Shown: positions 3,730 to 9,780 of the stretch, piece after piece
How positions within the stretch are numbered: the first letter of the stretch is position 1
Layout of the letters: every line of letters begins with the position of its first letter
NCBI GenBank assembly: GCA_020348345.1
Contig: CP070748.1
Location: 1,037,851-1,101,850, forward strand
Length of the DNA stretch: 64,000 nt
Reading direction: 5' to 3'
From: Methanobacteriota archaeon
GTDB taxonomy: Archaea > Thermoplasmatota > Thermoplasmata > UBA10834
Translations under genes and position numbers: made by a program
The notes under the pieces: model-generated
What the model saw: the letters and a program-made list of their open reading frames with translations, nothing else
Told to the model about the DNA's origin: nothing
The model's database searches: none

Positions 3730-6609
3730 TCATTCTATGTAAACGGCCGGCCTTCCGGGTCTGGCCTGCTTTGCACGGCCCTTGGGGTCCGTCCTCTTAG
3801 GGTCGTCAGCGGAGAAGACCGTCACATCGCATCCGAACTGCTCCTTGAGAAAGCAAGCAGCGGCGCTCAGAACCTCTAGCTCATCGATTCGCGCCGATGC
3901 CCTGCGCCTCTCCTCATGAGACATCCTGTTGACATCGGACGCGACTGCCTTTGCGAACGCAGGCGCCTCCTTCCTTGCTTCAGGAGACAGGTTCGGCATC
4001 GCCTCTCTGATGAGCTTCCCCACGTCCGCTCCGCTCTCGCCTTCGCGCAGCGCGCTGCCCAGCATATCGGCCTTCCACTTGGGGGCGGTCATCAGGACCA
4101 TCCTCGACGGCTCGATGGAGGTGACTTTGAGTATCTCAGAGATGTCCGTCATCAGCGCAGCCAGAAGCCTCTCCTTGGCCTCCTCGAGCTCCGCATTGTC
4201 GGAGACCTCCGCCTTCGGCAGCTGCGAATCCGAGACGAACCTCGGCATTCCTAAAGCCTCCCATATCTCCTCGGCGAGGTGTGGGGTCACAGGAGCCATC
4301 AGCTGCGTCCAGACGCGCAGCGCATCTCGAACACATTCCTTCGATGCCCCGCCCCTTCTCAGATACCATCTGAAGTCGTGGGACATCTCGAAGTAAACGT
4401 CGTTTGCGTAGGATCTGACGTCGAACTGCTCCATGTGCTTGTGCGCCTGTGCAAGGCGGCTCTGCATGCGTGCCCTGAGCCAGGCGTCTATGTCAGCGGG
4501 TGGCCCATCGTCCATCTCCACTAGATCGTTGGCGAAGCTCCATATTCGCTCTATGCGATCTCTGTATGATTCGACCTTCTCGTCCTCCCACGCGACGTCT
4601 ACGTACAGCGATGCGATGTGAGCGTAGAAGAGCCTCATCGCATCGACCCCGAACCTCTCCGCGGCATCAGGTATCGGCTGCGCACCCCCCTTCGACTTGG
4701 ATATCTTGCCTCCCGTGGCGGTGATGTACCAGTTCACTATGATACCCCGGGGCCAGTGCTCCGGCCGCAGCAGTCCCACGTGATTCATCAGGAACACGGG
4801 GAAGTGAACGGTCATGTGTTCCTTGCCGCCGAGGTTGATATCGAGCGGGTACCAATACTCGAACTCCGCCCTCACTGCTTCAAGGGTGCCGACGTCGATG
4901 CCGGTCATTTCGGCAACGGAGTCGAAGTCCCCCTCACCGAGCAGGACGCAGTCGAAGAACTCCTCGGTCATCCCGTCCGCGCTCACCGACCCGTCGTTGA
5001 CGTACTTGGCCAGCACATAGTGGATAGGGTATAGCGTGCTGTCCGCTATCGCCTCCACGATCCACCGTCTGTCGAACGGAAAGCGTGTTCCCAGCCAGTT
5101 GCCCAACCTGACACACGCCCTCTCCCTGTACCACTCGAGCACGTTCTGTATGTTGTCGTGATACTCCCTGGGAAGTATCCTCATCGTACGAGCATGATCC
5201 TTGGATTGTTCTTTCAGTCTCGGATTCGCATAGTCAATGAACCATTGGTCGGGTATCTTCTTGACGAACACCTTGGACCCACATCGGCAGAGGACCTCCT
5301 CCGAGAGGTCGTAGAAGATGGCGGCCGCCCCGGCCTCGATCATCTGCTCCCTAACGGCGTCCTTTGCCTGCTCGACGGCCCAGCCTGCGAACTCCCCGCA
5401 GGAGCTATTCATGACCCCCTTGTGGAATCCGGTCTTATAGACTTCCTTAGTCGCCTCTTCAAGACGCGGGTCGTCCAGGGATTTGATCCCCATGCGTTCC
5501 GTCACTTCCACAGCGGGGAGCGGCCCGTATCCCGGCGTTTCTATGATCGGCACAGGCGAGGCTGCGTCAATCATCTCTTCGGTGATGCCGTACCTCTCCT
5601 TTGCACCTTCATCGACTCTCAGCTCAACGAGCCCGATCCAGTCGACAGGGGCGTCTGATGGGACGCTCATCACCAGGCCAGTACCCACCTCAGGGTCACA
5701 CAGAACCGACGGGAAGATGGTGATCATCTTGCCAGTGAAGGGCGCCCTGCATCTTCGGCCCATGAGAGCAGCGCCGTCGGCGGAGGAGACCACTTCCACA
5801 GCATCCATCTGAAGCGCCAGCTTCTCAGCAGCAGGCCTGGATACCACCCAGGTCTCATCGCCCACCTTCGCGTCCACGTACTCGACCTCGGGGTTCACCC
5901 AAAAGTTCGTCAGGCCGAATACGGTCTCTGGGCGCAGAGTTGCCGCGACGAGCTTCCTGCCGTCCTCGAGGTCGAACTTGAGCAGCGTGTATTCCAGCAC
6001 TTCTGCGCTGCCTCCCTTTAGGATATCGGTCTCCGAAGCGTCGATAGCAACGGGCCCATGCTCGACACACGCTGGGGCGAAGTAGGGCTTCTGAATCAGC
6101 AGATCCTGAGCCTTCAACTTAGTCATCTGCCATTCTATGAACCGGTTGTAATCGGGGTTGATGGTGCTCGTGAACCTCCGCCAGTCGGACATGAAGCCGA
6201 AACGCTTCCAGTAGTCGTTCAGATAGACGTCGTTGAAGAATCTGACCACCTCAACAGGGTCGGTCAGTCGGGAAAGCGTCTCCTCGGAGCATCCGTTCGA
6301 GGTCAGAAGATCGACGGTCGCCGGGTCGCGCCGTTCGACCCTGCGGGCGAAGCTGATGGCGCCGTTTCCGGTGGCGTGTGTGCCTACCGGAAACAGGACA
6401 TTGTGTCCGGTCATGAGCTTGTATCGAACGATGGCGTCCGAGACTGTATATCCCCGCATATGGCCCACATGCAGGTAGCCCGTCACACCCGGGTAGGCGA
6501 AGATCATGAAGAACTTGGCTCTGCCTGGCTCTGGGTCGGACTCGTTGATACGAGCTTCGTACCACGCGTCCTGCCACTTGGCTTCCATGCGCGCGAAATC
6601 AAGAGCCAT
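3730..6609 (-). CDS. leuS: Leucyl-tRNA synthetase
   Basis: A 959-residue class Ia synthetase, the normal archaeal/eukaryal-type LeuRS length. It charges tRNA-Leu. The HIGH motif appears as HVGH (residues 47-50), the CP1 editing domain lies in the middle (TLRPETVFGLTNFWVNPE is the threonine-rich editing region), and the KMSKS motif is KISKS near residue 636 (GGKISKSKGGA). The anticodon-binding helical domain and a C-terminal archaeal extension follow. The ATG at 6609 gives MALDFARMEAKWQ, the standard family start. The gene stands alone between the DUF835 protein and a small membrane protein. Confidence 0.98.
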   Translation of the reverse strand: MALDFARMEAKWQDAWYEARINESDPEPGRAKFFMIFAYPGVTGYLHVGHMRGYTVSDAIVRYKLMTGHNVLFPVGTHATGNGAISFARRVERRDPATVDLLTSNGCSEETLSRLTDPVEVVRFFNDVYLNDYWKRFGFMSDWRRFTSTINPDYNRFIEWQMTKLKAQDLLIQKPYFAPACVEHGPVAIDASETDILKGGSAEVLEYTLLKFDLEDGRKLVAATLRPETVFGLTNFWVNPEVEYVDAKVGDETWVVSRPAAEKLALQMDAVEVVSSADGAALMGRRCRAPFTGKMITIFPSVLCDPEVGTGLVMSVPSDAPVDWIGLVELRVDEGAKERYGITEEMIDAASPVPIIETPGYGPLPAVEVTERMGIKSLDDPRLEEATKEVYKTGFHKGVMNSSCGEFAGWAVEQAKDAVREQMIEAGAAAIFYDLSEEVLCRCGSKVFVKKIPDQWFIDYANPRLKEQSKDHARTMRILPREYHDNIQNVLEWYRERACVRLGNWLGTRFPFDRRWIVEAIADSTLYPIHYVLAKYVNDGSVSADGMTEEFFDCVLLGEGDFDSVAEMTGIDVGTLEAVRAEFEYWYPLDINLGGKEHMTVHFPVFLMNHVGLLRPEHWPRGIIVNWYITATGGKISKSKGGAQPIPDAAERFGVDAMRLFYAHIASLYVDVAWEDEKVESYRDRIERIWSFANDLVEMDDGPPADIDAWLRARMQSRLAQAHKHMEQFDVRSYANDVYFEMSHDFRWYLRRGGASKECVRDALRVWTQLMAPVTPHLAEEIWEALGMPRFVSDSQLPKAEVSDNAELEEAKERLLAALMTDISEILKVTSIEPSRMVLMTAPKWKADMLGSALREGESGADVGKLIREAMPNLSPEARKEAPAFAKAVASDVNRMSHEERRRASARIDELEVLSAAACFLKEQFGCDVTVFSADDPKRTDPKGRAKQARPGRPAVYIE

Positions 6610-7122: not shown

Positions 7123-7137
7123 GAGTCAATATGACTC
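7123..7137. promoter_or_regulatory. 15-bp palindrome, candidate operator
   Basis: The sequence GAGTCA-ATA-TGACTC is a perfect inverted repeat with 6-bp arms and a 3-bp centre. It lies between the TATA element and the start codon of the small membrane protein on the minus strand, and about 35 bp from the divergent promoter of a double ribbon-helix-helix protein. Size and symmetry suit an RHH dimer site; binding is inferred, not shown. Confidence 0.4.
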
Positions 7138-7167
7138 GTTAAGACAAAATGTGACATTCCGGATATC

Positions 7168-7175
7168 TATATATA
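7168..7175. promoter_or_regulatory. Symmetric TATA element, possible bidirectional promoter
   Basis: TATATATA sits between two divergent genes. Rightward, transcription would begin near 7198, which excludes the ATG at 7179 as the start of the ribbon-helix-helix gene and favours the ATG at 7230. Leftward, it would begin near 7145, just ahead of the palindrome and the start codon at 7122. Confidence 0.6.
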
Positions 7176-7229
7176 CAAATGTATGACATATCTTGGTCTC
7201 GCGTCGATAAGCCGGGATGGGATGCACAC

Positions 7230-7613
7230 ATGTCTGACCTCTTGGAGAACGAGCGAATCACGCTGCGACTCGACTCGGATATACTGAAGTTGATGGACGA
7301 GTTCGTCGCCAACAGCCGTGAGTTCTCCAACAGGTCTCAGCTTGCCCGCGCCGCCGTATCCGCGTATCTCGAAGCCAAGGTCGCGGGCACAGAGGAGGGA
7401 ACGCACAGAAGACCGAACGAGGTGATGGTGCTGCTGCCGCCGCTCGTTCTCGACACGGTCGATCATCTTGTGGACGAGGGGATCTACACCTCCGTCTCAG
7501 AGGCATTGGCGGACTGTGCAAGGCATCAGTTCCTCCACGAGGAGCACGTGGAGTCCGTGAAGAAGGATGCAGTCCAGCAGAGAAGCGCCATGAAGGTCGT
7601 TCCCAAGACATGA
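7230..7613 (+). CDS. Double ribbon-helix-helix transcription regulator (CdrS-like position)
   Basis: A 127-residue protein with two consecutive ribbon-helix-helix units: residues about 9-50 (ERITLRLDSDILKLMDEFV, then FSNRSQLARAAVSAYLE) and about 64-103 (EVMVLLPPLVLDTVDHLV, then YTSVSEALADCARHQF). A single chain could therefore make a complete DNA-binding unit. I choose the ATG at 7230 because the TATA box at 7168-7175 would start transcription downstream of the ATG at 7179. The gene lies 97 bp before the FtsZ-like gene on the same strand. In haloarchaea the RHH protein CdrS precedes ftsZ2 and controls division genes; this order resembles that, so a division-regulator role is a reasonable inference. 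Confidence 0.85.
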   Translation: MSDLLENERITLRLDSDILKLMDEFVANSREFSNRSQLARAAVSAYLEAKVAGTEEGTHRRPNEVMVLLPPLVLDTVDHLVDEGIYTSVSEALADCARHQFLHEEHVESVKKDAVQQRSAMKVVPKT

Positions 7614-7710
7614 CAAAGGCACCGCTATGAGGGCGCACCGTCCGATACGGAATCTCTCGCAAGGGGGATTCTCTCGCGCTCGGACAGTGAACAAACGGAG
7701 GCCAGATGAA

Positions 7711-8502
7711 ATGTCAGAGGAAGGGAGCAAGGTCGGAGATCTAATCAGCGTCTTGGGCGTCACTTTGGGAGAGCCAGCAATCGCAGTCGTCGGATGCGGC
7801 GGTGCGGGATCGAACGTCGTACACAGCATCTACTGGGGTTCGAACAGGATAGAGACGGTGGCAGTGAACACCGATGAGGAACACCTGCGCAAGGTCGATG
7901 CTCACAAGAGGATCCTAATCGGGAAGGACGTCACATTTGGGAGGGACGCCAGTGGATTCCCGGAGATAGGAGAGCACTGCGCGGAGAAGGCACGTCAGGT
8001 GCTCCGTGAGGCGCTGAGGAACTACGACATCATCTTCGTCGTCGCGGGCATGGGCGGCGGCACAGGCACGGGCGTGTCGCCAGTCGTTGCCGCAGTGGCA
8101 AAGGAGATGAACGCGCTCACATTCGCGCTCCCGATAATGCCTTTTGCCGTCGAGGGCGGCGAGAAGACTAGAATCGCGACGAGAGGCATCGACAAGCTCA
8201 GGAATGTCGCCGATTTCACAGTGGTGCTTGACAACAACAAGCTGGCATCGATGGAGGCTGCCAGGAGCCTCCCTATGTCCGAGGCGATGAAGATCATCGA
8301 GAGGAGCGTCATCAAGATCGTGCAGACCATCAGCAACGAGACCAGCTCCTATGTGAGCTCTCTGATGCACGATATATCGGGATACGCCGACGCCTTCGAA
8401 GAGCCTGTAGTCGTGCCCCCGAGCGAGCACACTGAGGAGAGGCTCATACACGCTGAGTTGATGCATGACCTGGGCGATTTCGGACCCCATATGTTCGGCT
8501 GA
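7711..8502 (+). CDS. FtsZ-like tubulin-superfamily GTPase lacking the C-terminal domain
   Basis: A 263-residue protein from the ATG at 7711 (GGAGG 12 nt upstream); an upstream in-frame start at 7627 adds an unlikely basic extension. The FtsZ nucleotide-binding fold is clear: AVVGCGGAGSN (26-35), VAVNTDEEHL (50-59), GMGGGTGTG tubulin signature (113-121), LPIMPFAVEGGEK (140-152) and VVLDNNKL (171-178). After the H7 region the chain ends within about 50 residues: the catalytic T7-loop pattern NxDxxD is absent, as is the roughly 110-residue C-terminal activation domain, leaving only an acidic tail. Normal FtsZ is 330-400 residues. It may bind GTP without polymerising in the normal way, or act with a full-length FtsZ elsewhere. 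No frameshifted remainder is visible downstream. Confidence 0.85.
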   Translation: MSEEGSKVGDLISVLGVTLGEPAIAVVGCGGAGSNVVHSIYWGSNRIETVAVNTDEEHLRKVDAHKRILIGKDVTFGRDASGFPEIGEHCAEKARQVLREALRNYDIIFVVAGMGGGTGTGVSPVVAAVAKEMNALTFALPIMPFAVEGGEKTRIATRGIDKLRNVADFTVVLDNNKLASMEAARSLPMSEAMKIIERSVIKIVQTISNETSSYVSSLMHDISGYADAFEEPVVVPPSEHTEERLIHAELMHDLGDFGPHMFG

Positions 8503-8644
8503 AGCGCGGATACTGCTTCTTGATTTCCAGGGCACTCTGGCCCCCTGCGAAATGGACGCAATGAAACTCTTCGAAACCAGTTAATCGTTTCTTCTCCAAC
8601 ATTGGTCGAGAGGTCGGCGTGCCGGCGCCAAGAATCGCGAATCG

Positions 8645-8650
8645 TTTTAT
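8645..8650 (+). promoter_or_regulatory. TATA element of the NAD kinase gene
   Basis: TTTTAT is centred 27 nt before the GTG at 8674. That spacing predicts transcription starting at or next to the start codon, that is, a leaderless mRNA, and decides the start of the downstream gene. Confidence 0.55.
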
Positions 8651-8673
8651 TGGGTCACGGCCTTGTCATATCT

Positions 8674-9780
8674 GTGACGATCGTCGTGGGCTTCCTGATA
8701 AACCCCATAGCAGGCATGGGTGGACGTGTCGCGCTGAAGGGCACTGATGGGGTTGAGACGCAGAAGAAGGCGAAGAGGCGAGGGGCGGTTCCAACAGCAG
8801 CCAAGAGAGCGGCTGTTGCAGTCCGTGCGCTCGCATCAAGAGGTCTGGATATGAAGCTCCTGACTTGTGCGGGCGCGATGGGAGGGGATGTATTGCAGCG
8901 GGAGGGGCTGAGATTCACGACTGTCCTTACGCCTCCCAAAGCCACGACGGCGCTCGACACCAAGATGGCGGTTACTGAATTCGTCAGCAGGGAAGCGGAC
9001 ATCATCTTGTTTTGCGGAGGCGATGGCACTGCCAGGGACATCGTCGAGGTAGCCGGCTTGCGCGTGCCCATCGTGGGGATTCCCGGAGGCGTGAAGATGC
9101 ATTCCTCGGTTTTCGCTCTCCGCGCTGAGGACGCCGCGGAGCTCATAGAATCATACGCAAGGTCCCGAAGGACGAGGGAGGGCGAGGTTCTCGATGTGGA
9201 CGAAGACGACTATCGCGCGGGGCGCGCGCGTCCGCGTATTTTCGCGCTTGCGCGCGTTCCAGACGATAGGGACCATCTCCAGGCGGCTAAATCGACCTAC
9301 AGTGAAGCGTCGGCCGAGGCGGAGGCAGAGGCTCTCGGAGCCTATGTGGCGAACGCGATGGAGCAACGCACCCTCTATCTCATCGGGCCAGGCAGCACAA
9401 CGGAGGCGATCGCGAAGGCCATGGGGCAGGATAAGACCGCTCTCGGCGTGGACGCCTACATCGATGGGAAGCTGGTCGGTCGCGACCTCACAGAGAGTGA
9501 CGCCCTTGCGCTGATGCAAAAGCACGACAGAAGGGGCATAATCGTGACGCCTATTGGGGCTCAGGGGTTCATATTCGGCAGGGGCAACCAACAGCTCTCG
9601 CCGCGGGTGATACGCGCGGTGGGAGCGGACGGCGTCATGATCATTGCGACACCCACGAAACTCCGAAACACCCCCGCCCTGCATGTCGATAGTGGCGACG
9701 ATGAGCTCGACACATTGCTCAGAAGACCGTTCAAGGTGGTGACGGGCGCCGGGAGAAGGAGACTCATGAAGGTCGTCTGA
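8674..9780 (+). CDS. ATP-NAD kinase family protein (COG3199)
   Basis: A 368-residue protein of the archaeal NAD/acetoin-catabolism kinase-like family. It is expected to phosphorylate NAD to NADP. Visible motifs: FLINPIAGMGGRVALKGTDG at the N-terminus, the kinase core LFCGGDGTARDIVE (GGDGT motif) and GIPGGVKMHSSVFA, then PGSTTEAIAKAMG and ITPIGAQGF-like residues (TPIGAQGFIFGRGNQQ) toward the C-terminus. All match COG3199. I use the GTG at 8674, giving MTIVVGFLINP, because the TATA box at 8645-8650 predicts a leaderless transcript there; the longer reading from 8602 adds a non-conserved stretch. It follows the FtsZ-like gene by 171 bp on its own promoter. Confidence 0.9.
   Translation: MTIVVGFLINPIAGMGGRVALKGTDGVETQKKAKRRGAVPTAAKRAAVAVRALASRGLDMKLLTCAGAMGGDVLQREGLRFTTVLTPPKATTALDTKMAVTEFVSREADIILFCGGDGTARDIVEVAGLRVPIVGIPGGVKMHSSVFALRAEDAAELIESYARSRRTREGEVLDVDEDDYRAGRARPRIFALARVPDDRDHLQAAKSTYSEASAEAEAEALGAYVANAMEQRTLYLIGPGSTTEAIAKAMGQDKTALGVDAYIDGKLVGRDLTESDALALMQKHDRRGIIVTPIGAQGFIFGRGNQQLSPRVIRAVGADGVMIIATPTKLRNTPALHVDSGDDELDTLLRRPFKVVTGAGRRRLMKVV

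Follow-up and report, generated by a model that had tools for sequence, protein, structure and literature searches.

Proteins of the FtsZ and tubulin families are defined by polymerisation. The locus described here lies in a window of 64,000 nucleotides (the whole stretch of DNA analysed) and raises the question of what such a protein may do when its polymerising half is missing. The original prediction described a 263-residue protein that keeps the GMGGGTGTG nucleotide-binding core of FtsZ, lacks the T7-loop motif NxDxxD and the C-terminal domain, and follows a two-unit ribbon-helix-helix (RHH) gene in the order of cdrS-ftsZ2. It suggested a filament capper, an inhibitor or a nucleotide sensor acting on full-length FtsZ. 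We refer to the protein as half-FtsZ. The two genes had been placed correctly and are listed with the other features of the locus in Table 1.

The domain analysis bore out this description. Half-FtsZ matched the Pfam Tubulin domain (PF00091) at 6.7e-38, with no further domain above cut-off, and covered only positions 18-204 of the 353 in the ftsZ model TIGR00065, scoring 192 bits against a cut-off of 295. FtsZ_C (PF12327) gave six matches in the source genome and none at the half-FtsZ locus. NxDxxD was absent from the window protein and from every other half-FtsZ checked; every intact FtsZ1 and FtsZ2 of the relatives carries it. Lacking catalytic aspartates of its own, half-FtsZ would need a partner for GTP turnover. 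Loops T1, T4, T5 and T6 are intact. T3 is altered in the half-FtsZs of family f1 (TFGRDA for TRGLGA), so that the nucleotide-binding, or top, face is not fully FtsZ-like.

An AlphaFold2 model (m006e85937389; mean pLDDT 69.6, ten sequences used) predicted a normal FtsZ GTPase core and a helix H7 that runs straight through residue 228 before a disordered tail. The predicted helix spans the position of the T7 loop in FtsZ, its last part at low confidence. Solved FtsZ structures of M. jannaschii and S. aureus were the top Foldseek matches of the model.

Table 1. Features of the half-FtsZ locus, in window positions.
Feature	Positions	Strand	Basis
leuS, divergent neighbour; positional marker, outside the module	3730..6609	-	adjacency in nine families
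Putative promoter-operator	7130..7189	+	block conservation in family f1, TGACA/TGTCA excess; RHH binding inferred
Two-domain RHH (CdrS-like) regulator, 127 aa	7230..7613 (ATG 7230)	+	RHH_1 and RHH_8 above Pfam cut-off
Half-FtsZ, 263 aa: FtsZ GTPase domain, H7 and tail, no T7 motif, no FtsZ_C	7711..8502 (ATG 7711)	+	PF00091, Foldseek, tree
T4 nucleotide-binding loop GMGGGTGTG, residues 113-121	8047..8073	+	sequence reading; conserved in A1 and A2
H7, predicted single straight helix, 40 residues (189-228)	8275..8394	+	AlphaFold2
Disordered C-terminal tail, motif IHAEL (8446-8460), end FGPHMFG	8395..8499	+	pLDDT <50; motif statistics
ATP-NAD kinase-like gene, diverged, downstream of the module	8602..9780	+	NAD_kinase 1.6e-18

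As had been proposed, the protein naturally consists of a GTPase domain and a tail. Half-FtsZ is encoded at full length in 7/7 genomes of the same genus and was found in nearly all genomes of the same family. These orthologues have 258-264 residues and a common C-terminal end of the FGPxMFG type, with one exception (G014), in which the frame changes near the tail. None of these close relatives was found to carry a complete FtsZ, with T7 and C-terminal domain, at the locus.

When 400 genomes from the class Thermoplasmata were searched with a profile and the loci inspected, half-FtsZs of about 240-285 aa were recovered in 14 families (f1, f2, f6, f8, f12, f15, f16, f20, f22, f23, f29, f30, f32 and f33); family f18 adds a strongly diverged, degenerate branch. 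Several families showed no half-FtsZ in this search, and such absence calls depend on profile thresholds and on incomplete genomes (the source genome is itself 86.8% complete). One 3.2-Mb genome (G034) holds two copies (L057 and L064), both paired with an RHH gene of their own. A search of 293 genomes of the phylum turned up no half-FtsZ among the top hits from other classes. Three short frames in those classes were rejected as candidates: they carry T7 and are short owing to a contig end or a later break. Searches for viral carriers returned three weak matches at 25-32% identity.

In a tree of 65 GTPase domains, 39 half-FtsZs fell on one side of a branch with bootstrap/SH-aLRT support of 100/99, or 97/93 with the columns beyond the T6 loop left out. 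The clade adjoins FtsZ2 and lies far from FtsZ1; a topology with a single FtsZ2 clade excluding half-FtsZ was not rejected (p-AU 0.42). Values of dN/dS of about 0.05-0.2 indicate purifying selection. The module adjoins divergent leuS in nine families (f1, f2, f6, f15, f20, f23, f29, f30 and f32), and the ATP-NAD kinase-like gene is a neighbour in f1, f2, f20, f29, f33 and one f6 locus. On the simplest reading of these sequences, half-FtsZ would descend from FtsZ2, its T7 motif and C-terminal domain having been lost once, before the families of the class split; the operon would have arisen once from an ftsZ2-like operon and then passed down vertically, with losses.

In 78/78 half-FtsZ loci with enough upstream sequence (59 in the 14 families and 19/19 in f18; two further loci are cut by contig ends), the gene immediately before half-FtsZ, on the same strand, encodes a two-domain RHH protein. 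In the window protein both predicted units passed the Pfam cut-offs, RHH_1 at residues 26-65 and RHH_8 at residues 82-140 of a longer reading of the ORF. The NCBIfam CdrS model (NF058555) matched in two stretches with an E value of 2.8e-8, at 33.6 bits below its cut-off of 100. No solved structure was similar in sequence, and an AlphaFold model of low confidence (59.6) gave helices compatible with two RHH units, although this is no proof of them. In f12 and f22, a further RHH gene precedes the module's own (L055:7383-7853, L111, L115). In these archaea a CdrS-like gene with two RHH domains is also found upstream of full-length FtsZ2, and the half-FtsZ operon thus looks like a duplicate of the cdrS-ftsZ2 operon, a locus described previously (PMC7439475).

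The promoter region points to what the RHH protein may bind. In the window, TATGACT (7130-7136), GAC (7143-7145) and GTGACATT (7151-7158) follow one another at 10-bp steps, then a TATA box (7168-7175) and GTATGACAT (7181-7189), so that TGACA repeats flank the TATA box. Across ten genomes of family f1 the same block is highly conserved, with TATGAC, GAC and TGTGACATT at 10-bp steps, the TATA box and GTATGACAT. The 34 upstream regions compared, from 14 families, contain 75 copies of TGACA or TGTCA, against 14 +- 3.6 in dinucleotide shuffles (maximum 25 in 500 shuffles), with favoured spacings of 10, 20 and 32. Allowing up to three mismatches, the full operator occurred once in the source genome, at the half-FtsZ operon, although weak single sites may exist elsewhere. 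Its tandem form, TATGACA-N3-TATGACA with at most one mismatch, occurred at 14 sites in 12 Methanomassiliicoccales genomes; eight of these, including all three exact ones, lie at the half-FtsZ operon promoter, and the other six do not exceed the seven found with a reversed control pattern. A full operator found once in the source genome and a tandem form clustered at this promoter in related genomes suggest dedicated autoregulation. The RHH protein is likely to be a dedicated autorepressor that binds the TGACA repeats around its own TATA box and would hold the amount of half-FtsZ within tight bounds. Just before the RHH start, at 7215-7229, lies a G-rich GGGATGGGATG stretch that recurs in relatives. 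It translates as KPGWDAH, similar stretches precede several other genes, and it may be a ribosome-binding signal.

The tail of half-FtsZ had been singled out as acidic. The tail itself stands, as the last ~35 residues were predicted to be disordered (pLDDT <50), but what the tails share most widely is the motif IHA[DE]L and not the acidic end. This motif occurs in 6/14 families, whereas shuffled tails gave a mean of 0.17 and a maximum of 2 in 2000 shuffles, a statistic that is indicative since the pattern was picked after viewing the tails. It was found in 0/39 full-length FtsZ; the f6 proteins tested lack it, and the f18 alignment showed no instance of it. As far as the compared sequences go, the motif is specific to the half form, whose tails are otherwise lineage-specific. 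The C-terminal GID-type motif by which FtsZ2 binds SepF (PMC8178401) was present in none of the half-FtsZ tails.

The objection that half-FtsZ might not co-occur with a full-length FtsZ fails for the source genome, which has six full-length FtsZ genes and SepF beside it. The six genes, in a genome of 1.7 Mb, include two FtsZ1 genes in tandem and one divergent pair (G000:C1:377981, 384858, 386100, 721413, 722618 and 328561; L002-L006, L048-L050).

Two other lineages, f6 and f18, which we infer to be Methanomethylophilaceae and Thermoplasmatales, present a different picture. McrA is present in f6, f20, f29, f30 and f32, which we take to be Methanomassiliicoccales. FtsZ_C was not found in 15/16 f6 genomes and was sub-threshold in the remaining one; it was present in every other family sampled, except for one f18 genome without any FtsZ. 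Many f6 genomes have a second tubulin, a degenerate FtsZ2 that lacks the T7 motif and mostly has an RHH gene upstream; this CdrS-like gene usually overlaps it (L120, L122, L123, L125, L126, L128, L129, L132). In five genomes of the f6 genera g9 and g69 (G024, G203, G318, G167 and G291), half-FtsZ was the only FtsZ-type gene detected, even with a degenerate-FtsZ2 profile, and the four of them searched for SepF gave no match. A fragment of the degenerate FtsZ2 in a g9 relative (G387) indicates a recent or partial loss. The g9 and g69 half-FtsZs keep GGGTGTG, with dN/dS of 0.14-0.20.

In f18, full-length FtsZ is kept and half-FtsZ (about 255-295 aa) has an SGFGGxFxQ-like sequence in place of GGGTGTG. 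The f18 proteins match the half-FtsZ profile (7e-12) better than FtsZ2 (2.7e-8), and all f18 FtsZs placed in the tree are of the FtsZ1 type. Half-FtsZ was found in 0/8 f18 genomes without FtsZ and in 19/23 of the others, but these genomes are related and the pattern reflects few events. An additional match in f18 genome G189 was discarded, being a full-length FtsZ. As half-FtsZ is under purifying selection both in f6, without a normal FtsZ, and in f18, without the GTP motif, capping of FtsZ is not the whole story. Genera g9 and g69 and family f18 speak against capping, inhibiting or sensing for full-length FtsZ as a universal role.

The FtsZ GTPase site is formed by the top face of one subunit and the T7 loop of the next, and monomers have been proposed to add via the GTP-bound top face (PMC8936486). 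With a top face only, half-FtsZ could end a filament but not extend one, and would be unable to build a normal FtsZ filament. Its GTP-loaded face would dock where an FtsZ2 (or FtsZ1) subunit or filament end exposes its T7 face; the docked protein would terminate the filament and so cap, block or retime the ring, while the disordered tail may offer a short motif to another partner. In the FtsZ2-less f18, the GTP face would have decayed, leaving a function linked to the tail or the RHH protein. We counted in favour of docking the FtsZ2-adjacent clade, leuS synteny, the intact T1, T4, T5 and T6 without T7, the six FtsZ genes with SepF, the f18 co-occurrence, the operator and dN/dS, as well as the FtsZ1 type of all f18 FtsZs placed in the tree, in the lineage where the GTP motif is lost, a link seen in one lineage and few genomes. 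This is our leading mechanism for FtsZ-bearing species such as the source organism: it is quite possible, short of probable, that half-FtsZ caps, blocks or retimes FtsZ there. In the five g9 and g69 genomes, where no other tubulin-family gene was found, a capper would be without a target, and docking on FtsZ by itself explains neither f6 nor f18.

The constancy of the gene pair would fit another role, in which half-FtsZ serves as a sensor or co-factor of the RHH protein, altering its DNA binding according to GTP or another state, and FtsZ is not the target. The pair is kept in all 78 loci, including lineages in which no other FtsZ gene was found and those with a GTP-dead half-FtsZ. However, cdrS and ftsZ2 likewise stay together, and no binding of FtsZ2 to CdrS is known. 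Moreover, the only strong operator found is that of the operon itself, and a loop that only senses would lack an output, unless through weaker or single sites, which are possible. We regard this role as rather unlikely.

Half-FtsZ might instead be a stand-alone GTP switch with a target of its own (membrane, S-layer or nucleoid), the RHH gene only setting the dose. The finding of no other FtsZ-type gene in g9 and g69, where its GTP motif is intact, fits such a switch, as do the lineage-specific tails with their shared short motif. The missing catalytic aspartates, which leave turnover dependent on a partner, and the loss of the GTP motif in f18 count against it, and we consider it unlikely.

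A toxin-antitoxin-like pair, with half-FtsZ as a dominant-negative blocker of division, would account for a small RHH gene placed first, an effector second and an operator at the promoter, and neighbours of ftsZ2 were earlier called parD (PMC8178401). The module does not show the mobile, patchy, multi-copy distribution of type II toxin-antitoxin pairs. It is vertically inherited, nearly always single-copy and fixed at the leuS locus over nine families, and half-FtsZ is kept where no FtsZ target was found. PADLOC gave no match, and on that result a defence system was also rejected. We judge a toxin-antitoxin pair very improbable. Finally, a decaying pseudogene, a frameshift or an assembly error has practically no standing: short length speaks for it and nothing further, while the common C-terminal end in genus and family rules out the latter two, and the 14 families in one clade, the f18 branch and the low dN/dS count against decay.

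Archaeal FtsZ2 with CdrS is the closest known system, in gene order, upstream RHH gene, nearest branch of the GTPase-domain tree and nucleotide loops. Half-FtsZ differs in lacking the T7 motif, the C-terminal domain and a GID-type tail, in forming a separate clade, and in having its own locus by leuS and its own putative operator. In haloarchaea, CdrS has 61 aa and 18 binding sites (PMC8406309), whereas the RHH protein of the module has two RHH units and one strong candidate site. The FtsZ of Nitrosopumilus maritimus likewise lacks the conserved T7 loop, has an altered GTP-binding motif and was reported not to polymerise (PMC3684127), but it is thaumarchaeal, and that report describes neither a GTPase-domain-only form nor a pairing with an RHH gene. 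FtsZl1 (Tubulin_2) proteins share the FtsZ GTPase fold but differ in the C-terminal part (PMC2875224); half-FtsZ has an ordinary FtsZ GTPase domain and matched the Tubulin_2 model weakly, under cut-off. Inhibitors of the MciZ, SulA and MinC type resemble half-FtsZ in the proposed action on the FtsZ subunit interface, but are proteins or peptides unrelated to FtsZ, whereas half-FtsZ is its paralogue. We found no earlier description of half-FtsZ with an RHH gene in Thermoplasmata in the openly accessible literature.

Half-FtsZ probably has a function that does not depend on a filament. Tentatively, it may represent a branch of the tubulin superfamily that is deeply conserved and never polymerises, a dose-controlled regulator with its own RHH autorepressor that has outlived the FtsZ ring in some methanogens and become a pseudo-GTPase in f18. 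Half-FtsZs should not be counted as FtsZ in surveys of the division machinery. They provide a new handle on division control in these archaea, including the McrA-positive f6, which seems to lack ordinary FtsZ. A class-wide FtsZ paralogue without the polymerising half, with its nucleotide-binding half retained under selection and with a private regulator, allows filament-free action of a tubulin-family GTPase to be tested.
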